From a virus, in IMG/VR virus record IMGVR_UViG_3300021963_000063, positions 32,731-96,730 of that record: a stretch of DNA of 64,000 bases; one strand, written 5' to 3'. This document shows positions 5,978 to 63,818 of this stretch, one piece after another; positions within the stretch are counted from its first letter, which is position 1, and each line of letters opens with the position of its first letter. The position numbers and the translations under genes are program-made. The notes under the pieces are model-generated. The model searched no databases and had not been told where the DNA came from. It saw only the letters and a list, made by a program, of their open reading frames with translations.

Positions 5978-6159
5978 AGTGTTGCCTCATTATCGTGACC
6001 TGCTGCACAAGTATACTTTAAAATCATAGAGTCTTCATCTAAAATAGCAAACCCAATTGATTCCATACAGTTTTGGCATACAAATGTTCCTGTAACCTTA
6101 AGACCTTCTTGCTCTTCATTGTTTTTTAATTTAACAAAATCATTTGGATTTATACTCAT
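5974..6159 (-). CDS. Small zinc-binding protein
   Basis: A 61-aa protein with one CQNC pair near residue 28 and a later C-A-A-G-H segment near 52-56, spacing consistent with a single zinc ribbon. It overlaps its downstream neighbour by 4 nt and the RecA gene stop by 4 nt, so it is co-translated with the recombination genes. Function unknown. Confidence 0.6.
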   Translation of the reverse strand: MSINPNDFVKLKNNEEQEGLKVTGTFVCQNCMESIGFAILDEDSMILKYTCAAGHDNEATL

Positions 6160-7163
6160 AGCTTTGAATACACCTGAGATTCTAAGGTATCAAATACTTC
6201 TTGGTTTTCTCTAACATATTCTACTACCTTTGCACGACCCTGAAGTCTTTGATCTAGAACTGTATACCATGCTCCACCACGCTCAATAATTCCCATGAGT
6301 TCTGCTGTATCAACGAGGTCTGCAACCTTATCAACTCCAACATGGTCTCCCTGGAAATAGAAGTCATATGATCCACTAATGAACTGTGGTCCTGTTTTAT
6401 TGTAATCAATTGTCCAGTTTACTGGACGACCTACACGCTGTTCAATTAGTCTGTCTCCAACAGAGACCTTGTCCTTGATAGAACTTGCTTCAGATTCTGA
6501 TGACCATAACTTTACAATTGTGCTAGAGAAGAACTTAACAGCCATACCTCCAGTTGGGATATGAGTAGCGTGCATTCCACCAAAACTGTTTCTCTGTTGT
6601 GAAATTAAAACTAGCAAAGTATTTTCATTTACATAGTTAAGCATCTTTACTGCATGTGTCATGTCTTTTGCTTCAGCACCAATCTGCTTGGTGTCTTGAA
6701 GATCTTTTAGTTCGTTACCATCTTTTTCAAAGTAAATAGCAGGAAGAAGTGCAGAGATTGAATCAACAACAATTAAATCTACTCCAGCCTTCATGAGGTC
6801 TACTGCTACATCTACCATGTCATTGATTGTTTTAGCAGAAGAATAAATTAATTTGCTTGAGTCTACTCCTAGCTTTTCAGCCCACTCTGGAGAATAAGAT
6901 GCTTCTGAATCAATCCAGGCACACATCTTTCCTTCTTTTTGTGCTTCACCAATCATCTGCAAACAAAATGATGATTTACCTGCAGACTTATTTCCCCATA
7001 CAAGGATTTGTCTACCGTATCCAAAGCCACCCTTTAGTCCAACATTAAGACTGAGGCTTGGTGTTGCTTGTTTTTCTGTTTCTACTTCTGTTGCTGCTTG
7101 TACCCTTTTTCTTGTTTTGGGGTCTAGCTTTGACAGGATTTCTTCCATTGCTAATTCGGTCAT
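6156..7163 (-). CDS. recA: RecA-like recombinase
   Basis: A 335-aa RecA/UvsX-type strand-exchange ATPase. Walker A (GNKSAGKS) is at residues 57-64, Walker B (LIVVDSIS) near 130-137, and a loop with FGGMHATHIPTGG fits the DNA-binding L2 region. Phage RecA proteins drive recombination-dependent replication and repair. The ATG has GGAGAA about 11 bases upstream. The start lies 119 nt inside the preceding gene in another frame, an unusually long overlap. It sits in one operon with nucleases and resolvase. Confidence 0.92.
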   Translation of the reverse strand: MTELAMEEILSKLDPKTRKRVQAATEVETEKQATPSLSLNVGLKGGFGYGRQILVWGNKSAGKSSFCLQMIGEAQKEGKMCAWIDSEASYSPEWAEKLGVDSSKLIYSSAKTINDMVDVAVDLMKAGVDLIVVDSISALLPAIYFEKDGNELKDLQDTKQIGAEAKDMTHAVKMLNYVNENTLLVLISQQRNSFGGMHATHIPTGGMAVKFFSSTIVKLWSSESEASSIKDKVSVGDRLIEQRVGRPVNWTIDYNKTGPQFISGSYDFYFQGDHVGVDKVADLVDTAELMGIIERGGAWYTVLDQRLQGRAKVVEYVRENQEVFDTLESQVYSKL

Positions 7164-11009: not shown

Positions 11010-11666
11010 TTACCAGTCAACCGATGCACTTGCAGTTACGTCTGCATCAAGACCCATAAAGAAAGCTTCCTGGTCTGAATACTTTACTTGACGTACAGCA
11101 GTCTCATCAAGATTGTAAAGGTCAAGACCCTTAAAATCAAAAGGTGATTCATCTGTAGTTAGTGGGAATAGGGAGTAACTGGTTTGAGTTCCAGTTCCTG
11201 TTCGCTTTAATCGCCAGATTACATTTGTAATTGAACCTGTATCTCCAGCATACTCAACGATTGTCGTTGTTGTTGGGGACTTTGGACCAACACCTTGCGA
11301 CCAAATAGCAACGTATGGTTCATCTGTACCCTCGTCTACTAGCACGTTTGTGTAGTAGCGAAGACGAGCCTTCCATCCTGCCTTTGGATCACGGCGATTC
11401 ATCTCACAACCGTAGCAACGACCTTCCTCGTCCATTGAACATACTGCCTTACGGCGATAGTCTTTTGGATTTGTGTGTTCTGCTACAACGATTGCAAGAC
11501 CACGTTCTGTATTGTAATTTTTTGAGTCTGCATCAACTTCGTTCATAAAACGAATCTTTACGCTCTGTCCATCTTCTAGCTTAAGCCAGCGAGCCTTTGG
11601 ACCACTTTCGGTCCTTGGACGATCAATTAGGTTTTTAATATTTGCTAAACCTGTAATACTTGCCAT
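11010..11666 (-). CDS. ssb: Single-stranded DNA-binding protein, T4 gp32-like
   Basis: A 218-aa protein. A zinc site of gp32 type is visible as EH then VC after 11 residues, and a C-x7-C-x2-C group (CSMDEEGRCYGC) near residues 95-106; T4 gp32 uses an H-x12-C-x9-C-x2-C arrangement. Conserved basic and aromatic residues follow (AGWKARLRYYTNVLV). The C-terminus is acidic and aromatic, as expected for partner contacts. It would coat ssDNA at the fork with the DnaB-, DnaG- and DnaE-type proteins. AAGGAG precedes the ATG, and the gene has its own promoter. Confidence 0.82.
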   Translation of the reverse strand: MASITGLANIKNLIDRPRTESGPKARWLKLEDGQSVKIRFMNEVDADSKNYNTERGLAIVVAEHTNPKDYRRKAVCSMDEEGRCYGCEMNRRDPKAGWKARLRYYTNVLVDEGTDEPYVAIWSQGVGPKSPTTTTIVEYAGDTGSITNVIWRLKRTGTGTQTSYSLFPLTTDESPFDFKGLDLYNLDETAVRQVKYSDQEAFFMGLDADVTASASVDW

Positions 11667-43640: not shown

Positions 43641-45209
43641 TTATGCTTGTTGTCTACCTTCACCTTGAGGTACTCTAGCACCTGTTCCAGTATCTGCTGC
43701 ATTGGCTTCTCTTTGCTGATCTCTTAACCTATTTCCATTAGCTTGGGCTCTTTGTTCTGCCTGACCTTGTGCAGTTAATTGCACTGGTTCATCGCCTGTT
43801 GGCAATGCAGTCATACCCTTTCTTGATCTAACTTCATTAGGAAGATATACTCCCATTCTTAGATAACGCTCATCAATCTTTGATTGAGTATCTTCATCTG
43901 TAAGAGTAAGTTCATTAAATTTAAGCTTAAACATATCAGTTTTTTCTGAAACAATTCTGTTTACAGACTTTTCTAAAGTATCTTGTTCTGGACGACATAC
44001 CTGATCCTTAAAGGTTCTATCTGCTTCACGAGCATTCGCTAAAGATATATTTTCAGCAGTTCCAACTTTTGAAATTGGAACACGATGTGCCATAAGAATT
44101 TCACTAAGGTTTGTTTTTCTGTAGTTATTAAATGAAGAATCTTGAATTCCATTTTCTACTGCTTCCATCTTTACATCAATCTTTTGACCATTCTCATCAC
44201 CAGGAATTGGGATTACGAGGGTTCTATGGGATTGACCACGAAGGTTATTTTGGAAGAATTCAAATAACTTTGCTTCTGCATCTTTTGATAACTTTGCTCC
44301 CTTGATCCAGAATATGTATCTGGGAGTTGCTTTGTTTTCAAAGTATTCAAGATTAAATCTTGATGCAAATTCTGTACCTGCCATTGCATTTTTTGCTGCA
44401 ACGATAGGTGGAATTCCGTAATAAGTGTTTGTTGGTGTGTAAGACTTTAAGTGAATAATTTCATTTGGACGAGCATCCGCACCAACTGGATTTGGTTGAG
44501 ATAGGTCTTGAAAGTTTCTAAAGAATACTGCTTTACCATTTACGATTTGAACAAATCCATCACGAAGTCTACGGATACGAACAGTTGCTGCAGGAATGTG
44601 ACCAATATAGCCAATCTCTCCTGTTACCTTACGACCAATTTCTAGGTATCCATTTCCAGTTGCTTCTTTATCAATGTATGCTTTTACAAGAGTTGCGGTA
44701 AATGTATCTTCATCATTTCTTGATTCTAGCCACTCTTCAATTTCAAGCTTAGTTCTATCAAGCTTGCGTCTTCTTCTAGAAAGTTGATCCTTGTCTGTGG
44801 TTTCTTCAAGCATCTGCAAAACCTGTAGTGTTGGCTCTAGATTATAACCAAGACCTACAATGTTTGCAACCTTAGCATTAATTGCAGCAAAGTTTGCTGC
44901 TGAAACTTCATAAATTCTTGATAGAGAAATTAAGTTATATGGAGGCTCTACAACATCAAATAGACCATAGCCATACTTGTCTGGAACCAGTTGCTTAGAT
45001 TCTGATTCATCTCCATTTAGAGAGTTTTGATCTGCTTTTTCTAACTTTCTTTTAGCATTTCTTTTAAAGTTATGACCAAGACCTGACAACTTCATTAAGT
45101 CATCTGGCTTCTTACTAAAATCATCTGTGTCGTTATTATTAATAAGAGAATTAGACTTTACTGTATCAAGTCCAATATCTCTACCACTAATTTCCTGCAT
45201 TTCGTGCAT
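43641..45209 (-). CDS. Portal protein
   Basis: A 522-aa portal of the HK97/PBSX kind. Recognisable pieces are FDVVEPPYNLISLSRIYEVS near residue 90, DKEATGNGYLEIGR near 185, IIHLKSYTPTNTYYGIPPI near 250-268 (the Y-G-x-P motif) and the C-terminal helical crown LSEILMAHRVPISKV near 360. The start overlaps the preceding gene by 23 nt, with GAGAGG about 11 bases upstream. It forms the dodecameric DNA gate contacted by terminase. Confidence 0.9.
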   Translation of the reverse strand: MHEMQEISGRDIGLDTVKSNSLINNNDTDDFSKKPDDLMKLSGLGHNFKRNAKRKLEKADQNSLNGDESESKQLVPDKYGYGLFDVVEPPYNLISLSRIYEVSAANFAAINAKVANIVGLGYNLEPTLQVLQMLEETTDKDQLSRRRRKLDRTKLEIEEWLESRNDEDTFTATLVKAYIDKEATGNGYLEIGRKVTGEIGYIGHIPAATVRIRRLRDGFVQIVNGKAVFFRNFQDLSQPNPVGADARPNEIIHLKSYTPTNTYYGIPPIVAAKNAMAGTEFASRFNLEYFENKATPRYIFWIKGAKLSKDAEAKLFEFFQNNLRGQSHRTLVIPIPGDENGQKIDVKMEAVENGIQDSSFNNYRKTNLSEILMAHRVPISKVGTAENISLANAREADRTFKDQVCRPEQDTLEKSVNRIVSEKTDMFKLKFNELTLTDEDTQSKIDERYLRMGVYLPNEVRSRKGMTALPTGDEPVQLTAQGQAEQRAQANGNRLRDQQREANAADTGTGARVPQGEGRQQA

Positions 45210-55314: not shown

Positions 55315-55749
55315 TTATTTTTTAGGTTTACCTTCCGAAAAATTAGTAATTTCAATTTCTCTAGGCTTTAATTCATCTGGCACATTACGCTTTAAGCCAA
55401 TTACCAAGATTCCATCTTGCATATGGGCATCTGTAACATAAATATGTTCTGCCAGAGAGAAAGATCTTGTAAACTTTCTACCTGCGATTCCTCGATATAC
55501 ATAGTTTTCTGAATCTTCTGGTTTTACACCCTCAACTGTGAGAGTACCGTTTTCTTCAGTAATTTTTAGCATTGACTTATTATATCCAGCAATAGCTAGA
55601 TCAATTGCATATGTGTCTTCGTTGATTTGTCTTACGTTATATGGTGGAAATGCTGTCGCATTTGTCTTTGATAGATCATTAAATCTATCTAGTACCTTAT
55701 CCCAACCAATAAAGAATGGGTCATTTGCCCATGTTAGTGTTCCGTTCAT
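55315..55749 (-). CDS. Hsp20 / alpha-crystallin small heat-shock protein
   Basis: A 144-aa IbpA-like chaperone. The start FFIGWDKVLDRFNDLSK and NATAFPPYNVRQ lead into the alpha-crystallin domain with YAIDLAIAGYNKSML, GTLTVEG and GRKFTRSFSLAEH; the hydrophobic terminal strand ends EIEITNF. It binds unfolding proteins and may help virion assembly or host stress control; Hsp20 genes are known in cyanophages. AAAGGAG precedes the ATG. An array of phased repeats lies upstream of its promoter. Confidence 0.93.
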   Translation of the reverse strand: MNGTLTWANDPFFIGWDKVLDRFNDLSKTNATAFPPYNVRQINEDTYAIDLAIAGYNKSMLKITEENGTLTVEGVKPEDSENYVYRGIAGRKFTRSFSLAEHIYVTDAHMQDGILVIGLKRNVPDELKPREIEITNFSEGKPKK

Positions 55750-56925: not shown

Positions 56926-56948
56926 AGTATGGCATAGGGGTATGACAA
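56926..56948 (-). promoter_or_regulatory. Array-type promoter, leftward copy
   Basis: On the minus strand TTGTCA, then 11 bases (TACCCCTATGC) and a -10 CATACT with TGC before it. A GCGACACGC box stands further upstream, as in the rightward family. This is the only copy on the minus strand and it faces the DnaA-box cluster. Confidence 0.65.
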
Positions 56949-57005
56949 TTTCTGCCCTATTTTGGGCGTGTCGCATAATTATTTTTGTGATGTACACCAC
57001 ACTAC

Positions 57006-57134
57006 TTATACACAACCTTATACACATATGTGTATAACCTGTGGATAACCGCCTCGGGCATTTTTTCAGCCATTTGTCAATACGACACACCGTAAATCTC
57101 ACTGGAATTTTATCTGTGGATAACCTGTGGATTA
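57006..57134. other. Cluster of DnaA-box-like sites; origin candidate
   Basis: Six nine-mers match TTATCCACA or its complement with no or one mismatch: 57006, 57018 and 57029 (TTATACACA type), exact TGTGGATAA at 57040 and 57115, and TGTGGATTA at 57126. The cluster lies between divergent transcription units. Such grouping is what a DnaA-dependent origin or a DnaA-titrating site looks like. No AT-rich unwinding tract lies immediately next to it. Confidence 0.65.
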
Positions 57135-57180
57135 TTGTTCACCTAATGTTCACCTAAACACACCCCTAAAACACCTAAAA

Positions 57181-57203
57181 TTGTCAGCCCCCCCTGATAC
57201 GCT
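57181..57203 (+). promoter_or_regulatory. Array-type promoter 1
   Basis: TTGTCA, 11 bases, then -10 TACGCT preceded by TGA. The centre is more C-rich than in other copies (GCCCCCCCTGA). It drives the gene at 57233. Confidence 0.65.
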
Positions 57204-57232
57204 GAAAGCATAGAAAGAAAGGAGTGATTCAA

Positions 57233-57343
57233 ATGAAAAACTTACTAATCGTGGCTAAGTGCCAATGTTGTGAGGACAACTACCGTCTAGAAGAATTAGA
57301 TTCTGACGGTTACTGTTCAGGTTGTATCGAATACACCCTCTAA
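57233..57343 (+). CDS. 36-aa zinc-ribbon microprotein
   Basis: MKNLLIVAKCQCCEDNY with a second pair CSGC near residue 28, forming a two-knuckle zinc ribbon. AAAGGAG lies about 10 bases before the ATG. First gene of the rightward array. Confidence 0.68.
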   Translation: MKNLLIVAKCQCCEDNYRLEELDSDGYCSGCIEYTL

Positions 57344-57345
57344 AA

Positions 57346-57368
57346 CTGTCAGACCTATCTGATAGACT
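57346..57368 (+). promoter_or_regulatory. Array-type promoter 2
   Basis: CTGTCA, 11 bases, -10 TAGACT with TGA before it. The promoter and the following 35-nt leader are nearly repeated at 57748, apparently by duplication. Confidence 0.7.
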
Positions 57369-57400
57369 CAAACTACTAAACAAAAAGAAAGAGGTCACAA

Positions 57401-57586
57401 ATGACTTACTTAGTAACAAATAAGAGAGACGGTATCTCTAACGAATACATCTCTATTCATTCTGCCTTGCAAATGGTTGCAAGTTGCTATGACGGTGCAG
57501 GTATCACTTGCGAAATCGTCAATACAGAAACAGGGGAACAGGTAGAAATCTACCGCAACCCACTAACAGGTTGGAAGGTGGCTTAA
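57401..57586 (+). CDS. Hypothetical small protein
   Basis: A 61-aa mixed alpha/beta protein (MTYLVTNKRDGISNEYIS, ending NPLTGWKVA). AAAGAGG precedes the ATG. It abuts the next gene (TAAATG-type junction). Not recognised. Confidence 0.68.
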   Translation: MTYLVTNKRDGISNEYISIHSALQMVASCYDGAGITCEIVNTETGEQVEIYRNPLTGWKVA

Positions 57587-57745
57587 ATGGCTTACACTAA
57601 ATTAAAGAATGCATCACTACTAGTAGATGCTATGAAACAATTGGAAGATGCGAAAGCAACTGCCCTAGAATTTCCTGCACACCAAAGAATGGTGGACTAT
57701 TGGGAAAATCAAATTCAAATCTTGACTAAGCGTGTCTACAGGTAA
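57587..57745 (+). CDS. Hypothetical helical protein
   Basis: A 52-aa helical protein (MAYTKLKNASLLVDAMKQLE) whose ATG directly follows the stop of the previous gene. Translation is probably coupled. Its stop lies three bases before the next array promoter. Confidence 0.6.
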   Translation: MAYTKLKNASLLVDAMKQLEDAKATALEFPAHQRMVDYWENQIQILTKRVYR

Positions 57746-57747
57746 AA

Positions 57748-57770
57748 CTGTCAGACCCCTATGCTAGAAT
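57748..57770 (+). promoter_or_regulatory. Array-type promoter 3
   Basis: CTGTCA, 11 bases, -10 TAGAAT with extended TGC. It has the consensus centre GACCCCTATGC. The leader matches that of promoter 2 closely. Confidence 0.75.
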
Positions 57771-57803
57771 CAAACTACTAAACAAAAAAGAAAGGTGGTC
57801 ACA

Positions 57804-58019
57804 ATGACTACACTAAACACAAGAGAATTCATAGATTCTTACAATGCACTAAACAAGGCTAAGCACCCACTTAGCCACACCTCAAGTTCTGGCTATGTTG
57901 CATTAGCAACAATTCTAGAAATCTCAATTAACTGGAAACAGGGTATCAAGCAGATACAAGATACGCTAGATGAAAAATCTGCACAATGGAAAAACGAATT
58001 AGAAAGTTTGGTGAAATAA
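57804..58019 (+). CDS. Hypothetical small protein
   Basis: A 71-aa protein starting MTTLNTREFIDSYN, with a helical C-terminus (KQGIKQIQDTLDEKSAQW). The ATG at 57804 is chosen for AAAGGTGG upstream, in preference to a longer frame from 57795. Not recognised. Confidence 0.65.
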   Translation: MTTLNTREFIDSYNALNKAKHPLSHTSSSGYVALATILEISINWKQGIKQIQDTLDEKSAQWKNELESLVK

Positions 58020-58020
58020 A

Positions 58021-58188
58021 ATGATGACACGCAAAGACTATGTAGCAGTCGCAGAAATTCTAAACTCTTACCACTTGGAAATTGAAGCACAAACTTTTGA
58101 GGATTTGCTTTCAGACTTCCAAACATTTTTCAAAAGAGATAATTCTAATTTTGACTTAACACGATTCAGAGATGCGGTGATGAAATAA
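58021..58188 (+). CDS. Hypothetical protein, common actinophage type
   Basis: A 55-aa helical protein (MTRKDYVAVAEILNSY, ending SNFDLTRFRDAVMK). Short proteins with this MTRKDY start and FD-x-x-RF end are common in actinophages; recalled, not checked. It lies one base after the previous stop. Confidence 0.65.
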   Translation: MMTRKDYVAVAEILNSYHLEIEAQTFEDLLSDFQTFFKRDNSNFDLTRFRDAVMK

Positions 58189-58262
58189 TGAATAGTTTTT
58201 ATTCTTGGATTTTAATTTTATCTTTAGCAAGTTTAGTTTTTTTAATCGGACAGGAAAAATAA
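58188..58262 (+). CDS. 24-aa membrane microprotein
   Basis: MNSFYSWILILSLASLVFLI forms one hydrophobic helix, then GQEK. The ATG overlaps the previous stop (TAATG), so translation is coupled. Such microproteins recur in the array (58264, 62254, 62352). Confidence 0.5.
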   Translation: MNSFYSWILILSLASLVFLIGQEK

Positions 58263-58263
58263 A

Positions 58264-58332
58264 ATGGAAATGTTTTTAGTTTTTATTTTTGGTCTGATCG
58301 CATTGGGAGTAATTTCAAAATACACAGACTAA
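58264..58332 (+). CDS. 22-aa membrane microprotein
   Basis: MEMFLVFIFGLIALGVISKY forms one hydrophobic helix. The ATG lies two bases after the previous stop, where GGAAAAATAAA could act as a weak ribosome binding site. A pair of tandem membrane microproteins suggests a small complex. Confidence 0.48.
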   Translation: MEMFLVFIFGLIALGVISKYTD

Positions 58333-58393
58333 AAAAAATCCAAAGCTTCTGGGCGTGTTGACTTGACATTCCCAGAAATTTTGGCTCGGGGCG

Positions 58394-58468
58394 TTTTCCA
58401 CAACTTATCCACAGCTGTTAAGAACCTGTGTATAACTCACGGGAATTCTGGGGATAACCTGTGTATAA
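58394..58468. other. Second DnaA-box-like cluster
   Basis: TTTTCCACA at 58394, exact TTATCCACA at 58405, TGTGTATAA at 58427 and 58460, and TGGGGATAA at 58449. Five sites within 75 bp and in both orientations, in an intergenic stretch just before an array promoter. Confidence 0.55.
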
Positions 58469-58514
58469 AAAGTTTACCAAATGTTTACCTTAGACACGCT
58501 TAAAAGTCCCAAAA

Positions 58515-58537
58515 TTGTCAGACCCCTCTGCTAAAGT
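58515..58537 (+). promoter_or_regulatory. Array-type promoter 4
   Basis: TTGTCA, 11 bases (GACCCCTCTGC), -10 TAAAGT. A GACACGC box lies upstream. The leader that follows is the longest of the array. Confidence 0.72.
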
Positions 58538-58562
58538 GAAACTATAAATAAATAGTTAAGTA

Positions 58563-58604
58563 TGAGCCTAGCAAATAAACCGCAAGGGTGAGCCTAGCAA
58601 ATAA
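58563..58604 (+). repeat. Duplicated leader element
   Basis: TGAGCCTAGCAAATAA occurs at 58563 and 58589, 26 bp apart, in the 5' leader of the gene at 58633. A related segment (GGGTGAGCC, then AGCAAATAA and AACGAAAGG) stands in the leader of the leftward gene at 56853. Possible RNA regulatory element. Confidence 0.6.
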
Positions 58605-58632
58605 GACTTAACACTAACGAAAGGAATACAAA

Positions 58633-58818
58633 ATGTATTCACTAACTATCGAAGAACTATTGGTGGGTCAGCGTTACACCTCTAGTCGTGGATTCGCTGG
58701 AGAAATTATCACTGCTGAAAAGCGTGAAGATACTATGAGCGATAGTGCTTATCTAATCTATGTCCGTCAAGACGGATTCCCTTACTACTTCTATTCAACA
58801 GTTGAGGTGACTGCATAA
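58633..58818 (+). CDS. Small beta-type protein
   Basis: A 61-aa protein (MYSLTIEELLVGQRYTSSRG) with alternating strands ending YYFYSTVEVTA, consistent with an SH3-like barrel. GAAAGGA lies 11 bases upstream of the ATG. Its stop overlaps the next ATG. Confidence 0.65.
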   Translation: MYSLTIEELLVGQRYTSSRGFAGEIITAEKREDTMSDSAYLIYVRQDGFPYYFYSTVEVTA

Positions 58819-58973
58819 TGAATGAATTTATTTGTTGTTTTTGTGAAACAGAAATGAGTGAAGAACAAATTATTTGTTGCGACACTTACAAGGGTAAAAT
58901 GTCTTTGAAAGATTTTGAAGAAATTTATGGTTACACCTTAGTAACTCTTGACTACCAATACGAGGATTGCTAA
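58818..58973 (+). CDS. Small Cys-rich protein
   Basis: A 51-aa protein beginning MNEFICCFCETEMSEEQIIC, with four cysteines near the start (CCFC and CC) that could bind zinc. The ATG overlaps the previous stop by one base. Function unknown. Confidence 0.58.
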   Translation: MNEFICCFCETEMSEEQIICCDTYKGKMSLKDFEEIYGYTLVTLDYQYEDC

Positions 58974-59165
58974 ATGGGTTATGTAGAAATTTTTGAAATG
59001 AATTCCAATGGTGCAGGTTGGACAAATTTAGATGACCTGCCCGTTGGTGATGTAATCGAAATGCAATTTGAACTTTCAACTAATCCTAGCGTTCAATTGC
59101 TCTGTGCCTTTTGCCTTGTGCCAATTCCTAGTGGCTCAGGTAACGCCTGTGGAAAACATAAATAG
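58974..59165 (+). CDS. Small zinc-binding protein
   Basis: A 63-aa protein with LLCAFCLVPIP and a terminal C-G-K-H group, spacing that suits one zinc ion. ATG follows the previous stop directly. Ends in a stretch of DnaA-box-like sequences. Confidence 0.58.
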   Translation: MGYVEIFEMNSNGAGWTNLDDLPVGDVIEMQFELSTNPSVQLLCAFCLVPIPSGSGNACGKHK

Positions 59166-59199
59166 TTATCCACAAGAGCTATCCACAGCCTGTGGATAA
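59166..59199. other. Third DnaA-box-like cluster
   Basis: Exact TTATCCACA at 59166, CTATCCACA at 59179, and exact TGTGGATAA at 59191 within 34 bp, in an intergenic stretch. With the clusters at 57.0 and 58.4 kb it makes about 14 sites in 2.2 kb. Confidence 0.6.
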
Positions 59200-59269
59200 C
59201 CGCCCGAGCACATTTTTATCCTGGTGTCAATTACGACATTACTAAAAAATCACGAGAATCACAGGAAAA

Positions 59270-59292
59270 ATGTCAGACCCTTATGCTAGTAT
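59270..59292 (+). promoter_or_regulatory. Array-type promoter 5
   Basis: ATGTCA, 11 bases, -10 TAGTAT with TGC. The upstream box GTCAATTACGACA lies at 59225-59237, 45 nt before. Confidence 0.72.
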
Positions 59293-59322
59293 CAGAGATA
59301 CCTACTAAGAAATGAGCACTAC

Positions 59323-59856
59323 ATGACATACGCAACTCTATACCGCAACATTGCTAAGACCGCAACACCTGCACAAATTGAACAAGCCACGCAATGGTAT
59401 GCAGATGCAGAATTACTTGCTAGTGATCTAATCAGAATTTATCAGTCAAGAGGAATTAATCTAACACTAGAACATACCGCTAGTATCATTTCATCATTCT
59501 CACCTCGTCAGCGTTGGAATCGTAACGTAGTGCAAGCATTAGAATTTGCTCATGGAGGTGAGCCAAAAGGCTTAGGCAATAATCTACGCATGGCAAAACA
59601 ATCACAAGAAATTGGTTTCGATGCACTTAAGGGACTAAAGACAAATGCATTCGCTCGTGCAATTGCTGGCGATGATGATGCTATAACAATTGATGTGTGG
59701 ATGTGTTATGCAGCAGGACTAGATACCAATGCACCTAACAAAACACAATACAGAGAATTATCTGAGGCTGTAAGAATTGTTGCAAGCGAAATGAAAATGA
59801 CACCTAGAGTTATGCAAGCCCTGATCTGGATTATCTACAGGGGCAGTGCAGCTTGA
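59323..59856 (+). CDS. Conserved phage protein, DUF7178-like, HhH-GPD-like pattern
   Basis: A 177-aa protein, mostly helical. The central part has SFSPRQRWNRNVVQA near residues 67-81, then DALKGLKTNAFARAIAGDDD followed by AITIDVWMCYAAG near 98-132. The loop-helix-Asp layout recalls the helix-hairpin-helix and catalytic Asp of DNA glycosylases, though the fit is loose. It also resembles actinophage proteins labelled DUF7178. GAG precedes the ATG only weakly. Function unproven. Confidence 0.62.
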   Translation: MTYATLYRNIAKTATPAQIEQATQWYADAELLASDLIRIYQSRGINLTLEHTASIISSFSPRQRWNRNVVQALEFAHGGEPKGLGNNLRMAKQSQEIGFDALKGLKTNAFARAIAGDDDAITIDVWMCYAAGLDTNAPNKTQYRELSEAVRIVASEMKMTPRVMQALIWIIYRGSAA

Positions 59857-59858
59857 CA

Positions 59859-59877
59859 GAGCCACCGAAAGGTGCTC
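59859..59877 (+). terminator. GAAA-loop hairpin with GCTCGGGG
   Basis: GAG(C)CACC-GAAA-GGTGCTC forms a stem with one bulged C closed by a GNRA loop, just after the 59323 gene, then CGGGG. A close relative with a T-run exists at 61376. Probable cassette terminator. Confidence 0.5.
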
Positions 59878-59938
59878 GGGGCTTCCAGCTCCTTACCTAA
59901 TTACGACATTACTAATAACTCACAGGAATCACTGGAAA

Positions 59939-59961
59939 ATGTCAGTGGTCTATGCTAAGAT
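59939..59961 (+). promoter_or_regulatory. Array-type promoter 6
   Basis: ATGTCA, 11 bases (GTGGTCTATGC), -10 TAAGAT. AATTACGACATTACTAA stands upstream from 59899. Confidence 0.7.
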
Positions 59962-59990
59962 GATTTCATCATCAACCGAAAGGGTTTTCA

Positions 59991-60143
59991 ATGAAAACTT
60001 CAGTTCCAGATTTCGTTTCAGATTTCCAAGTTCAGTTTGAAGAGTGGGTTATGTCAATCCACGAAGACCTATGCACCTGTCAGGCTTGTGACCCAGAGTT
60101 TCACATGGAGTTGCTTGAAGAGTGGGAAGGTATGGTGTGGTAA
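59991..60143 (+). CDS. Small acidic Cys protein
   Basis: A 50-aa protein with CTCQACDPEFH near residues 29-39, possibly a zinc-binding loop, and Trp-rich acidic ends. GAAAGGG precedes the ATG. It is a single-gene cassette between two array promoters. Confidence 0.6.
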   Translation: MKTSVPDFVSDFQVQFEEWVMSIHEDLCTCQACDPEFHMELLEEWEGMVW

Positions 60144-60208
60144 AGGGCTCGGGGCTGTGACCTATCTCACATTTACGATTAAGTGAAATATCACGAAGAT
60201 CACGAGAA

Positions 60209-60231
60209 TTGTCAGACCCCTGTGCTATGCT
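60209..60231 (+). promoter_or_regulatory. Array-type promoter 7
   Basis: TTGTCA, 11 bases (GACCCCTGTGC), -10 TATGCT. TTTACGATTAAG-like and TCACGAAG-type sequences stand upstream as in other copies. Confidence 0.7.
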
Positions 60232-60260
60232 ATGAGCATACCTACAGAAATGGAAATGCT

Positions 60261-60512
60261 ATGTTTACACTAAACAAAATTACTAAGAATGAAGAACTAA
60301 ACTATTTTGTATCTTCACACCCTTGCCCAAATTGCGATAGCACTTTATCAGTTGAGATTACTCCTGATAAGTTGTACGCATACAACCAAGGGGCTTATGC
60401 CCAAGATGTATTGTCTGCCTATGATGCAGGTGTGCGTGAGCGTTTCATTAGTGGAATGTGTGAAATTTGTTGGGGACTAATGTTTGACTTTGACGATGAT
60501 GATGAGGAATAA
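60261..60512 (+). CDS. Zinc-ribbon protein with acidic tail
   Basis: An 83-aa protein from ATG 60261; a longer frame would begin upstream of the promoter and is rejected. It has HPCPNCDS near residues 20-27 and a second pair MCEICWG near 67-73, then a poly-Asp/Glu tail. Possibly a nucleic-acid mimic or protein-binding factor. Confidence 0.65.
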   Translation: MFTLNKITKNEELNYFVSSHPCPNCDSTLSVEITPDKLYAYNQGAYAQDVLSAYDAGVRERFISGMCEICWGLMFDFDDDDEE

Positions 60513-60514
60513 AA

Positions 60515-60537
60515 TTGTCAGACCTCTCTGATAAGGT
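60515..60537 (+). promoter_or_regulatory. Array-type promoter 8 (leaderless start, WhiB unit)
   Basis: TTGTCA, 11 bases (GACCTCTCTGA), -10 TAAGGT. Six bases after the -10 comes the ATG of the next gene. It begins the unit that ends with the WhiB gene and its neighbour. Confidence 0.72.
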
Positions 60538-60543
60538 ATACCT

Positions 60544-60681
60544 ATGAATTACAAAACACCAGACCACCCTGAACGCTTGAGGGCTAGACTTGAACTACGC
60601 AGGTCAAGTGCCTCACAACCACACAAGTCCAAAAAGGCTTACACACGCAAGACCAAACACAAGAACCTACAAGGAGAATAA
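60544..60681 (+). CDS. Small basic protein (leaderless)
   Basis: A 45-aa Lys/Arg-rich protein (MNYKTPDHPERLRARLELRR, then a Lys/His-rich end). ATG lies six bases past the -10, so a leaderless message is likely. It probably binds nucleic acid or RNA polymerase; first gene of the WhiB unit. Confidence 0.58.
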   Translation: MNYKTPDHPERLRARLELRRSSASQPHKSKKAYTRKTKHKNLQGE

Positions 60682-60682
60682 A

Positions 60683-60979
60683 ATGGGAAGAAACTTCGCA
60701 ACAGAATTATCCGCTATGGATACTATGCCACTTGAGCAACAGATTAACTTGCACTTGCAATACAACTTCTATCCACCTGTACCGTCCTCAATGGTACAAC
60801 CTTGCATTGAAGCAATTGACGCTTATTGGGACGAGGACATTTATCGTGAAATAGAAATGCCATTAGGAGTTTCTTATCGTGGTAGTGATACTGCACCTGC
60901 TCACGCTATCGTTGAACAACACCGCTTAGATTCCTGGCTAAGCGAACTAGATGACTACTATGAAGATGAAGAGGTTTAA
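60683..60979 (+). CDS. Hypothetical acidic protein
   Basis: A 98-aa protein (MGRNFATELSAMDTMPLEQQ) with an acidic C-terminus (DYYEDEEV). AAGGAG precedes the ATG at 60683. It sits between the basic protein and WhiB; the opposite charges of the first two products may mean they interact. Confidence 0.68.
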   Translation: MGRNFATELSAMDTMPLEQQINLHLQYNFYPPVPSSMVQPCIEAIDAYWDEDIYREIEMPLGVSYRGSDTAPAHAIVEQHRLDSWLSELDDYYEDEEV

Positions 60980-60981
60980 TT

Positions 60982-61188
60982 ATGTGGCAACTACAAGCAA
61001 ACTGTGATGAAACAAATACAGAACTATTCTTTAGCAAACTAGAAAGTAAAGTTGCTAAAGCAAAAGCCCTATGTGGCAGTTGTGCAGTTGCAGACAAGTG
61101 TTTGCAATTTGCATTAGATACAGAAATTGAATTTGGTATTTTTGGTGGAGTCACCGCAGACGAAAGGAAAGCACTTGTTTCAAACTAA
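60982..61188 (+). CDS. whiB: WhiB-family iron-sulphur transcription factor
   Basis: A 68-aa minimal WhiB protein. Cys8, then LCGSCAV with the C-x2-C pair near residues 31-34 and Cys40 (KCLQFAL) form the four-cysteine [4Fe-4S] site; the turn FGIFGGVTADERK matches the conserved G-[VI]-W/F-G-G motif. WhiB proteins bind the region-4 domain of sigma-A and are found only in actinobacteria and their phages. No C-terminal AT-hook is present, so DNA contact would be limited. It lies in the array with displaced-box promoters. Confidence 0.93.
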   Translation: MWQLQANCDETNTELFFSKLESKVAKAKALCGSCAVADKCLQFALDTEIEFGIFGGVTADERKALVSN

Positions 61189-61366
61189 CTTAGTAGTGAA
61201 CTTTACCAATGGTGAAAGTAAAACTTATTTAGATGTTCACCCTGACCAAAGTTTCTTTATCCATAATGAGATGCTTACATTAGAAACGCTAAACGGTGAG
61301 ATGATTTGGTACATACCTGCCGTATCTGTAATTGACTACTACACAGAATGCGTGAGGGTTTCATAA
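61175..61366 (+). CDS. Small beta-type protein
   Basis: A 63-aa protein starting at TTG 61175, where AAAGGA lies 6-8 bases upstream and overlaps the WhiB end by 14 nt. Strand-rich (LVVNFTNGESKTYLDV, then MIWYIPAVSVIDYY). A longer frame begins inside whiB and is less likely. Function unknown. Confidence 0.55.
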   Translation: MFQTNLVVNFTNGESKTYLDVHPDQSFFIHNEMLTLETLNGEMIWYIPAVSVIDYYTECVRVS

Positions 61367-61375
61367 CTTGACAAA

Positions 61376-61407
61376 AGCTCCGAAAGGGGCTCGGGGGGAT
61401 TTTTTTT
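61376..61407 (+). terminator. GAAA-loop intrinsic terminator
   Basis: AGCTCC-GAAA-GGGGCT forms a GNRA-closed stem, followed by CGGGGGGA and eight Ts. It ends the WhiB unit. Its sequence resembles that at 59859. Confidence 0.72.
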
Positions 61408-61458
61408 GAAATGTCAATTACGACACGCTCAAAAACTCACTGAAAAAAACACTAGAAA

Positions 61459-61481
61459 TTGTCAGACCCTTGTGGTAATGT
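61459..61481 (+). promoter_or_regulatory. Array-type promoter 9
   Basis: TTGTCA, 11 bases (GACCCTTGTGG), -10 TAATGT. GTCAATTACGACACGC lies at 61413-61428, 46 nt upstream. Confidence 0.7.
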
Positions 61482-61511
61482 ATACACATAACCTACTAAG
61501 AAAGAGAAAAA

Positions 61512-61643
61512 ATGACAGACCAGCAACTTGTAGATAAAATTGTTGATTTATTTGATGCAGTCATTGACGAGAGTGCATTGGATAGATTATCAGAAGAAGA
61601 ACTAAAAGCAATTGACAAAATACTAACGGAAGCAGGTTACTAA
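61512..61643 (+). CDS. Small helical protein
   Basis: A 43-aa acidic helical protein (MTDQQLVDKIVDLFDAVIDE). AAGAG lies upstream. First of seven tightly packed genes up to 62664. Confidence 0.6.
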   Translation: MTDQQLVDKIVDLFDAVIDESALDRLSEEELKAIDKILTEAGY

Positions 61644-61644
61644 A

Positions 61645-61983
61645 ATGGGTGCAAGAATTAATTTCGTATTTGATGACGGAACAGATAGCCTAGTTAATCT
61701 TTATTCACATTGGGGTGAGACTGATTGGGAAAATGATTTAATAGGTGCATTGATACACGCACAGAAACGCAAAGGTGACTATTCATACTTTACTCGTATG
61801 GTTATCTCACACCTAATTAAAGACTATGTTTTAGATGAAACTGGTTTTGGTATCTATGCAATTAACCGTTCAGAAATTGCTAACAATTTTGATAAGACAG
61901 TTGTATTAGATTTAGTAAATAACACATTGACAGATTTAGACAATGATAAGACAGTTGAACTATATGGAAAGGTATTTGCATAA
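61645..61983 (+). CDS. Conserved phage protein, unknown function
   Basis: A 112-aa alpha/beta protein: RINFVFDDGTDSLVNLYSHW near the start, a helical middle (LIGALIHAQKRKGDYSYFTR), then a Gly-rich strand and an acidic end. Short proteins with a similar opening occur in other phages, but no function is known. Stop overlaps the next ATG. Confidence 0.68.
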   Translation: MGARINFVFDDGTDSLVNLYSHWGETDWENDLIGALIHAQKRKGDYSYFTRMVISHLIKDYVLDETGFGIYAINRSEIANNFDKTVVLDLVNNTLTDLDNDKTVELYGKVFA

Positions 61984-62132
61984 TGGCAAAGATGAAAACA
62001 ATTGAAATGATTCTAATGGAAAACCACCCTGATGGAATTTACAATGAAGATGATGTATGGGAAGCAATTGCAGAAGCAAATGGCATGGACTATTCAGAAA
62101 TAGCAGACGGAGATTTAGCAGAATGGCTATAA
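61983..62132 (+). CDS. Small acidic protein
   Basis: A 49-aa protein (MAKMKTIEMILMENHPDG, ending DLAEWL) starting on a TAATG overlap and ending inside the next gene start by 10 nt. Function unknown. Confidence 0.6.
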   Translation: MAKMKTIEMILMENHPDGIYNEDDVWEAIAEANGMDYSEIADGDLAEWL

Positions 62133-62254
62133 AACTATTTAATAAGAAACCAGAACTAATCGAAGATACATTTACTAAGTTAGATAGACTAATGAGTGAA
62201 ATGGCATCTACTGACATCTACATCGAATACCTTGAATTAAGGGAGGGTATGTAA
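62123..62254 (+). CDS. Small helical protein
   Basis: A 43-aa protein (MAIKLFNKKPELIEDTFTKL) from ATG 62123; an upstream in-frame extension would run into the previous gene and lacks a ribosome binding site. Overlaps the next ATG by one base. Confidence 0.58.
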   Translation: MAIKLFNKKPELIEDTFTKLDRLMSEMASTDIYIEYLELREGM

Positions 62255-62352
62255 TGGCATTTGGTATCCTAATGGTATTGACTGTATACTCATTTATTGT
62301 TATGATAATGCTATACACAGACAAAGTTGAAAGCGAATGGGATAGTCAATAA
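62254..62352 (+). CDS. 32-aa membrane microprotein
   Basis: MAFGILMVLTVYSFIVMIML forms one transmembrane helix with an acidic tail. GGGAGGGT precedes the ATG, a strong ribosome binding site, and both ends overlap neighbours by one base. Confidence 0.62.
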   Translation: MAFGILMVLTVYSFIVMIMLYTDKVESEWDSQ

Positions 62353-62459
62353 TGGAAATATTTTTTGGGGCAATTGGTCTGCTAATATTGTTTGGAGTGC
62401 TTATGTCTAATGGCAAGGGTACACCACACGATGAGGAAGATGGTTGGTATGATTACTGA
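62352..62459 (+). CDS. 35-aa membrane microprotein
   Basis: MEIFFGAIGLLILFGVLMSN forms one helix, then an acidic tail (DEEDGWYDY). Starts on the TAATG overlap with the previous gene. A second tandem pair of membrane microproteins. Confidence 0.55.
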   Translation: MEIFFGAIGLLILFGVLMSNGKGTPHDEEDGWYDY

Positions 62460-62664
62460 GTATAAAGAAATAGATCAACTAATTGGAATGACTATTGAGC
62501 CAGGTGATATGGTAAAGCTGCCTAATGGTGATATTGTAAATATCATTCGCACTGAACCCACCGCAACAGGCTATGATTTATTCTTCTTAGATTTGTTTGA
62601 AGATGAGGAACTGGTTTACAGTTTAGACGACAATGAAAAGGTAACACTCCTAGAATTTGACTAG
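62449..62664 (+). CDS. Small SH3/KOW-like protein
   Basis: A 71-aa strand-rich protein: PGDMVKLPNGDIVNIIRTEP near residues 18-37 recalls a KOW/SH3-like barrel. The start at 62449 is inside the previous gene's end, with AGGAAG about 10 bases upstream. Last gene of the 61459 unit; GCCCCGAGC follows. Confidence 0.58.
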   Translation: MITEYKEIDQLIGMTIEPGDMVKLPNGDIVNIIRTEPTATGYDLFFLDLFEDEELVYSLDDNEKVTLLEFD

Positions 62665-62754
62665 GGGTGCTGCCCCGAGCTCATAACTTGCCAAATGTCA
62701 AGTTACGATGTGTGATTTAAGTCACAGGAAATTAGATGTAAAAAAGACTAGAAA

Positions 62755-62777
62755 TTGTCAGACCTATCTGCTAAGAT
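62755..62777 (+). promoter_or_regulatory. Array-type promoter 10
   Basis: TTGTCA, 11 bases (GACCTATCTGC), -10 TAAGAT. A GTCAAGTTACGATG box lies near 62697-62710, about 58 nt upstream. Confidence 0.72.
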
Positions 62778-62811
62778 GTTAGCATAACAACAACATAGAA
62801 AAGAGAAGCAA

Positions 62812-62967
62812 ATGGATAAAATCCAAACACCAACTGTTGGCTCACAGTTCACGACTGCTAAGTCAGGCGTAACAGGAACAGTTCAGGAAGTAATCAAAAA
62901 TACTACTGGCTCACTCCGTATTCGTCTTGATGTAAATGGTCAAGACCGTTGGACTACTGTAAAGTAG
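62812..62967 (+). CDS. Small beta-type protein
   Basis: A 51-aa protein (MDKIQTPTVGSQFTTAKSGV) ending DVNGQDRWTTVK, likely a small SH3-like barrel. AGAGAAG precedes the ATG. Single-gene cassette. Confidence 0.6.
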   Translation: MDKIQTPTVGSQFTTAKSGVTGTVQEVIKNTTGSLRIRLDVNGQDRWTTVK

Positions 62968-62991
62968 TTTTAGTTATGGGGTCTGGCAAAA

Positions 62992-63014
62992 CTGTCAGAC
63001 CCCTATGCTAAGAT
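62992..63014 (+). promoter_or_regulatory. Array-type promoter 11
   Basis: CTGTCA, 11 bases (GACCCCTATGC), -10 TAAGAT. No separate upstream box fits before it; it follows closely after the 62812 gene. It drives the 161-aa gene and probably tRNA-Asp. Confidence 0.75.
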
Positions 63015-63050
63015 TATTTTAATAAACTACCTACAAATAAGGAGACCCAA

Positions 63051-63536
63051 ATGGGACTAGACATGTATCTTCGTGCGAATGAGTATGTATCACGCAACGA
63101 TTGGACTCGTAATGACAAAGGTGAATTAGTTGATAGCCCTAATTCATTGTTTCAACAAATTGTTGAGACTCTTGAGTTAGAAAACATTATTGACAATACT
63201 GGATTTGCTGGAATGAGCATTGACTTACCAATGGGTTACTGGCGTAAGGCTAATCAAATCCATAACTGGTTTGTTGAAAACTTAGCAGACGGTGTTGATG
63301 AATGTCAGCCAATTGTAGTTCGTAGAGAAGATTTAGAAACTCTAAAAGAATTGTGTATTCAAGTTCTTGCTGTGAAAGAATTAGCAGAAGATTTATTACC
63401 AAGTGCTTCAGGTTTCTTCTTTGGTTCAACTACCTATGATGAATACTACTATAGTGATTTGAATGACACCATTGGTATTATTAACAAGTGTCTTGAAAGC
63501 AAGTTTGATTACTTTGAATACCAAGCATCTTGGTAG
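63051..63536 (+). CDS. Conserved phage protein (MGLDMYL family)
   Basis: A 161-aa protein with the family pattern MGLDMYLRANEYV at the start, GYWRKANQIHNWFV near residue 60-73 and LPSASGFFFGSTTYDEYYY near 116-134. Related proteins are widespread in phages and plasmids but have no known function. AAGGAGA precedes the ATG. Largest gene of the last 4 kb. Confidence 0.78.
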   Translation: MGLDMYLRANEYVSRNDWTRNDKGELVDSPNSLFQQIVETLELENIIDNTGFAGMSIDLPMGYWRKANQIHNWFVENLADGVDECQPIVVRREDLETLKELCIQVLAVKELAEDLLPSASGFFFGSTTYDEYYYSDLNDTIGIINKCLESKFDYFEYQASW

Positions 63537-63538
63537 TA

Positions 63539-63629
63539 GGGCAGTGCCTGAATCCATAAACCTGCTACAGCCACGCAGGTAAAATAAGGGGGACAGTCCT
63601 GAGTACCATACCCAGACTATAAACTGCTC
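63539..63629 (+). ncRNA. Possible structured RNA before tRNA-Asp
   Basis: In the 98-bp gap, GGGCAGT (63539-63545) can pair with ACTGCTC (63623-63629), enclosing a perfect ACCTGC/GCAGGT hairpin (63560-63580). It is not a tRNA: no TTC-type T-loop is present. It could be a processed RNA or a leader guiding tRNA maturation. Confidence 0.35.
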
Positions 63630-63634
63630 ACCCT

Positions 63635-63708
63635 GGTCTGTTAGCTCAATTGGTTAGAGCACTACCCTGTCACGGTAGAGGTTGTGGGTTCAAGTCCCAT
63701 ACAGATCG
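63635..63708 (+). tRNA. tRNA-Asp (GTC)
   Basis: A complete cloverleaf: acceptor GGTCTGT pairs with ACAGATC (one G-T), D-loop with AGCTCAATTGGTTAGAGC, anticodon loop CTGTCAC within a CTACC/GGTAG stem giving anticodon GTC, and a T-arm with GGGTTCAAGTCCC. The discriminator is G, as expected for tRNA-Asp. CCA is not encoded. It may support translation of the Asp-rich, AT-biased phage genes. Confidence 0.95.
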
Positions 63709-63795
63709 CAAAAAGGGCTCGGGGCTCAGCTCCCTATTTGTCAATTACGACACGCCTAAAAATATCACGAAGTTTCTTAAAATAAGTATTGATTA

Positions 63796-63818
63796 TTGTC
63801 AGACCTATGGTGTATAGT
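63796..63818 (+). promoter_or_regulatory. Array-type promoter 12
   Basis: TTGTCA, 11 bases (GACCTATGGTG), -10 TATAGT. The upstream box GTCAATTACGACACGC lies at 63740-63755, 56 nt before. Confidence 0.7.

Follow-up and report, generated by a model that had tools for sequence, protein, structure and literature searches.

A serial array of putative PafBC-type promoters ahead of the small genes of an IMG/VR phage

The locus and its repeated promoter element

The window analysed here is a stretch of 64,000 nucleotides, comprising positions 32731-96730 of the 96,730-bp IMG/VR virus record IMGVR_UViG_3300021963_000063. The minus strand carries the structural, replication and metabolic genes of the phage, encoding portal, capsid, tape measure, DnaB, DnaG, DnaE, RecA and ribonucleotide reductase. 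At the right end of the contig the plus strand is occupied by a block of small genes, within which a promoter-like element is found in 12 copies; a thirteenth copy is divergent (Table 1). The element is 23 nt in length, and comprises [T/A/C]TGTCA, 11 nt and a TAnnnT hexamer, with AAAA upstream and usually TGn ahead of the hexamer.

An initial annotation of the sequence had described thirteen promoters with a [TAC]TGTCA box, a gap of exactly 11 nt, and a TAnnnT hexamer usually preceded by TGn. All thirteen are where it placed them, and the spacing holds in every one. The hexamer conforms to TAnnnT in 12 of the 13, the minus-strand copy at 56948 having CATACT (and TGTCAT in its box), and TGn is likewise present in 12, being absent from the copy at 63796. 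The box itself had been drawn too short. It extends further as AAAA[T/A/C]TGTCAGACC[C/T], A-rich just upstream, and most copies have TGTCAGACC; the canonical gtg follows TGTCR in just one of the 13, at 59939. There is no –35 hexamer in the array copies, the sequence 17 nt upstream of the –10 being A-rich and not TTGACA. In 10 of the 12 plus-strand copies a start codon lies 29–36 nt past TAnnnT, giving a purine-rich leader of ∼25 nt, and the copy at 60515 has its ATG 6 nt past the hexamer. The sequence supports a description of the array copies as promoters without a –35 element, in which an activator box lies close to an extended –10 and always with the same spacing.

The element stands out clearly from the remainder of the contig. 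A 27-column matrix run over the whole contig gives 14 matches of ≥21 bits, and the next best scores 7.7. The fourteenth starts the other side of the contig, at position 145 (window –32585), and the array thus continues at that opposite end. The pattern TGTCAG-N10-TAnnnT occurs 14 times on the contig (shuffle mean 1.58, maximum 5), of which the match at 45088(–), within a coding region, is probably due to chance. The stricter TGTCAGnCC-N4-TGnTAnnnT occurs 11 times (shuffle mean 0.01, maximum 1). Of the contig's 38 TGTCAG words, 14 are followed by TAnnnT at a gap of 11, and no other gap is found more than four times.

Table 1. Positions of the promoter copies and associated features (window coordinates except where marked)
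Feature	Position	Strand	Remarks
Divergent copy TTGTCATACCCCTATGCCATACT	56926..56948	–	weakest –10, CATACT
PafBC-type promoter TTGTCAGCCCCCCCTGATACGCT	57181..57203	+	ATG 57233
PafBC-type promoter CTGTCAGACCTATCTGATAGACT	57346..57368	+	stop codon immediately before; ATG 57401
PafBC-type promoter CTGTCAGACCCCTATGCTAGAAT	57748..57770	+	ATG 57804
PafBC-type promoter TTGTCAGACCCCTCTGCTAAAGT	58515..58537	+	longer leader; ATG 58633
PafBC-type promoter ATGTCAGACCCTTATGCTAGTAT	59270..59292	+	DUF7178 gene downstream, ATG 59323
PafBC-type promoter ATGTCAGTGGTCTATGCTAAGAT	59939..59961	+	canonical mycobacterial TGTCAGTGG form; ATG 59991
PafBC-type promoter TTGTCAGACCCCTGTGCTATGCT	60209..60231	+	ATG 60261
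PafBC-type promoter TTGTCAGACCTCTCTGATAAGGT	60515..60537	+	leaderless, ATG 60544; reads towards WhiB
PafBC-type promoter TTGTCAGACCCTTGTGGTAATGT	61459..61481	+	ATG 61512
PafBC-type promoter TTGTCAGACCTATCTGCTAAGAT	62755..62777	+	ATG 62812
PafBC-type promoter CTGTCAGACCCCTATGCTAAGAT	62992..63014	+	ATG 63051
PafBC-type promoter TTGTCAGACCTATGGTGTATAGT	63796..63818	+	ATG 63852
Cluster of 12 DnaA-box-like 9-mers	57006..59199		strand both or unspecified; intergenic spaces of the array; origin-like
Phage RecA gene	6156..7163	–	outside the array, no array promoter upstream; context for a link to single-stranded DNA and repair
WhiB-family gene within the array	60982..61188	+	Pfam Whib, 3e-21
Second WhiB-family gene, beyond the array	11130-11432 of the contig (L009)	–	homologues in related phages

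A known class of promoter, in bacteria and in phages

The LexA-independent DNA-damage response of actinobacteria is run by PafBC, known in mycobacteria as the main regulator of the response to DNA damage. The RecA-independent (RecA-NDp) DNA-damage promoters of mycobacteria have the consensus tTGTCRgtg-8nt-TannnT (PMC5656591), and the 11 nt between TTGTCR and TAnnnT in the array is therefore the published gap. A TGTCR box with TAnnnT exactly 11 nt after TTGTCR is found in 12 of the 13 copies, and at contig position 145. The consensus writes gtg in lower case, marking weaker positions (PMC5656591), and it is here that the array mostly has ACC. PafBC is a heterodimer of WYL-domain proteins, of which PafB recognises the –26 motif and PafC attaches to domain 4 of sigma-A. 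The latter contact replaces that with the –35 element (‘sigma adaptation’), and the complex is activated by single-stranded DNA (ssDNA) on the WYL domains (PMC11804915). Thus the array and the PafBC promoters have in common the TGTCR box, the 11 nt to TAnnnT and the lack of a –35 element. In cells the targets are DNA-repair genes, with an SOS box adjoining the recA promoter, whereas the phage copies are arranged serially before small genes and mostly have ACC, not GTG, after TGTCAG.

How widespread is such a promoter? When genomes, one for each species, were scanned for TGTCAGACCCC-N2-TGnTAnnnT, at least 119 loci were obtained; among the matches listed, 72 are from Actinomycetota and 19 from Deltaproteobacteria/Myxococcota, as counted from their titles. 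Immediately downstream of the motif lie ssb, recN, radA-like and imuA-like RecA genes, together with genes for PARP-WGR proteins, an SbcD-like phosphoesterase, nucleases and helicases. At many of these bacterial loci the start codon lies 6–7 nt past TAnnnT, so that leaderless transcripts are predicted. In Deltaproteobacteria/Myxococcota, recN, ssb and imuA-like genes have the TGTCAGACCCC fixed-gap promoter upstream (L194, L232, L234, L252 and L255), and these sequences suggest a PafBC-like damage response outside the actinobacteria.

The Nanopelagicales are abundant freshwater actinobacteria, and candidate hosts. In 20 of 30 recA upstream regions of this order we find TGTC-N12-TAnnnT, and in 15 of those 20 the hexamer directly abuts a LexA (SOS) box. 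The triplet in the box is TGG, TGC or CCC, and thus varies at orthologous sites. Each of the 41 Nanopelagicales genomes tested encodes WYL proteins, usually two of them in tandem; the one that was checked adjoins tatC and matches the PafBC structures 6sj9 and 7p5x.

A pattern scan of IMG/VR gave at least 120 loci, many of them multi-copy. The 14-base pattern yields some chance single matches, and weight was therefore placed on the multi-copy loci and on TGTCAG words other than those matched by the fetching pattern. Among such words in the related viral loci listed, 416 of 731 have TAnnnT at a gap of 11, against 11 at a gap of 10 and three at 12; the reversed control word gives 6 of 285. The triplet following TGTCAG in these loci is ACC in 251 cases, TGG in 153, TCC in 57 and TGC in 43. 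The literal mycobacterial form TGTC[A/G]GTGG is present in some related contigs, and a second scan, for TGTCAGTGG, revealed near-pure canonical arrays in G211, G209, G212 and G213, and in G214 with TGTCGGTGG. G211 has 24 promoters in 15 kb (14.5–29.6 kb), mostly TGTCAGTGG. Since G211 mostly has TGTCAGTGG and G214 mostly TGTCGGTGG, R is A or G as published.

The first 18 motif-bearing contigs that were compared share open reading frames (ORFs) among themselves, as do the contigs with canonical arrays, and we take most of the motif-bearing phages to be one family, largely from fresh water, that infects actinobacteria. The 8-kb contig L223 has no ORF in common with the family, yet it has six copies of the promoter. 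One of its genes encodes a GP88 phage-type domain by Pfam; a search of its genes against PHROGs gave no match. The PafBC promoter class is a known one. Phage promoters of the class were not found in any publication by title and abstract, in the open-access literature on PafBC with phage, and arrays of such promoters in phages appear to be absent from the literature searched. When isolated phages and plasmids were searched by BLAST with a consensus promoter, no actinophage matched, the query being too short to inform. In the Myxococcus plasmid NZ_CP123279.1 a ParB-like gene has upstream of it a 22-nt sequence close to this consensus (L131, 12798-12819). BLAST places the near-match at three positions on this plasmid, and a strict TGTC[AG]G extended –10 regular expression finds none in a 12-kb stretch.

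Which factor reads the promoters

We consider the array most likely to form a phage regulon built of PafBC-type promoters, on which the PafBC of the host would respond to the ssDNA of infection, and assign this a probability of roughly 0.82. The phage would then probably run part of its programme off the DNA-damage sensor of the cell. This supposes that its host carries PafBC, that PafBC drives the promoters and that infection ssDNA provides the signal. Infection or phage replication would expose ssDNA, to which the PafB-PafC heterodimer of the host would bind via its WYL domains. PafBC would join RNA polymerase-sigma-A paused at the TGTCAG(ACC/TGG) box (around –26) and the extended –10, adapting region 4 of sigma as a substitute for a –35 element, and the small genes of the module would switch on together with the repair regulon of the cell. 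DnaA-box-like TT[AT]TNCACA words occur 23 times in the contig, and 12 of them fall in a 2.2-kb part of the array, so that replication may start nearby. If it does, phage DNA, not host damage, could be the signal.

The initial annotation had looked to a phage factor, perhaps the WhiB encoded within the array, that redirects host RNA polymerase. Its inference of sigma redirection has held, in that the matching known class, the PafBC promoters, reprograms sigma-A (PMC11804915); the choice of factor has not. A WhiB gene does lie within the array, and a second is homologous in 10 of 18 compared relatives. WhiB proteins bind sigma-A region 4, and a phage WhiB so bound could read the box. However, the WhiB of the array is not the one common to relatives, which is the second gene of Table 1, and of 50 motif records 17 yielded a WhiB (13 of the 19 longer than 60 kb). 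The mycobacteriophages TM4 and Butters both have WhiB, and none of their TGTCRG sites (0 of 113 and 0 of 47) has the 11-nt gap. Moreover, the motif belongs to a known non-WhiB class whose consensus is assigned to PafBC (PMC5656591), and it also precedes cellular DNA-repair genes. Recognition by WhiB is very unlikely as a result, and the array gene is likely to be cargo, not an activator, to judge from these comparisons.

Searches for WYL proteins gave none in this contig and none in 48 motif-bearing records, which are fragments, and Sigma70_r2 was found in none of the 21 motif-bearing records searched. Given these absences, and the poor correspondence between WhiB and motif, the simplest account is that the phage depends on the PafBC of its host, which is most likely the agent that reads the promoters. 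Because cellular promoters carry the same element, a factor private to the phage is not needed.

Several points weigh against a role for host PafBC. As the phage records are fragmentary, a WYL gene may lie outside the parts recorded. Most of the motif phages make up one extended gene-sharing family, for which a shared phage factor is possible. The ACC form is absent from the 30 Nanopelagicales recA regions examined, and TGTCAGnCC sites are present in 13 of 151 Nanopelagicales genomes, although they are common in other actinobacteria. This scarcity of ACC would also fit a phage-encoded, non-WYL protein that mimics PafBC on the same class of promoter as a private sigma-adaptation factor, and the core gene set of most motif phages includes several unknown proteins. 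Yet no candidate recogniser was found, the ACC form occurs upstream of repair genes in many bacteria, L223 has its six promoters outside the family, and the TGTCAGTGG phages carry the exact host form. We therefore regard such a mimic as unlikely. A mixed arrangement, in which the phage family times its small genes by the ssDNA and DNA-damage sensor of the cell and some members have a near-private box (TGTCAGACC) read by a phage-made non-WYL sigma-adaptation factor, has a similarly slim chance of being correct.

The copies might also be plain sigma-A extended –10 promoters that need no activator, with the box serving a repressor or some other protein. Initiation can be supported by TGnTAnnnT on its own, and the frequency of TGn in the array accords with this. 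In addition, TTGACA is found 1–3 nt upstream of TGTC in 14 of 305 promoters of the compared phage contigs, providing a canonical –35 at 17–19 nt besides the box. But the box is more conserved than TGn and is locked to one spacing, like the site of an activator that cooperates with sigma, and the layout of box and –10 is that of an established activator-dependent class, so that autonomous promoters are distinctly improbable. Sites of the L5 stoperator type, bound by a phage repressor, contain TGTCA and recur across phage genomes, and could overlap promoters by chance. In the array, however, the rest of the box differs, every copy has a –10 at 11 nt, and the copies are limited to one block of small genes and are not scattered; this explanation is barely credible. 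A sigma-54 –24/–12 layout was rejected by eye, as the spacing is one off, there is no GG, and TAnnnT is sigma-70-like.

If the promoters are indeed read by host PafBC, the phage small genes, and perhaps phage growth, should depend on host pafBC. That an array may hold as many as two dozen such promoters suggests that PafBC is used as a developmental trigger by these phages. The code of the box could then be defined from hundreds of natural PafBC promoters that vary in it, and the arrays offer a sequence mark for actinobacterial phages in metagenomes.

Comparable systems and other features of the array

In the middle promoters of phage T4, which are subject to sigma appropriation by MotA and AsiA, activator box and extended –10 are close together and constant in spacing, and the –35 contact is replaced. 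The layout of the array is alike, but the box is not: that of MotA is of the TTGCTT type, where the array has TGTCAGACC or the TGG form, and a MotA box was rejected on this basis. T4 uses phage proteins, whereas the array probably uses a host factor. The SiwR promoter of Mycobacterium smegmatis also has a WYL activator at the –26 region (PMC10693628), with a GGA triplet and a 19-bp imperfect palindrome where the array has TGTCAG. The nearest ribonucleotide reductase (63%) is that of the Stanwilliamsviridae phages of Streptomyces, such as Bmoc. Like the array, Bmoc has a block in which the genes form single units and every unit has an upstream region of its own; the promoters inspected there by eye differ in having –35 and –10 elements spaced at 17–18 nt, and the 11-nt gap follows just 2 of 72 TGTCRG words.

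Further conserved sequences lie about the promoters. Three of the array promoters have a conserved TGTCAATTACGACA about 45 nt upstream of them, at window positions 59225, 61412 and 63739. In related phages GACACG has a peak 19 nt upstream of TGTC, and CGTGTC one at 10 nt, and 15 Nanopelagicales recA promoters have GACAC 8–12 nt upstream of TGTC. It is possible that GACA..TGTC includes a second half-site for the same complex. Recurrent GCTCGGGGC words are found between the units at 58384, 59874, 60147 and 63717, and at 62680 on the minus strand, sometimes followed by runs of T. From their sequence these are probably terminators, comparable to the GGCCGCCCCGGCC blocks of Bmoc. A tRNA-Asp (GTC) gene lies inside the array at 63635-63709, immediately 5′ of the last promoter, and the phage encodes a small heat-shock protein of the HSP20 type at 55315-55749 on the minus strand.

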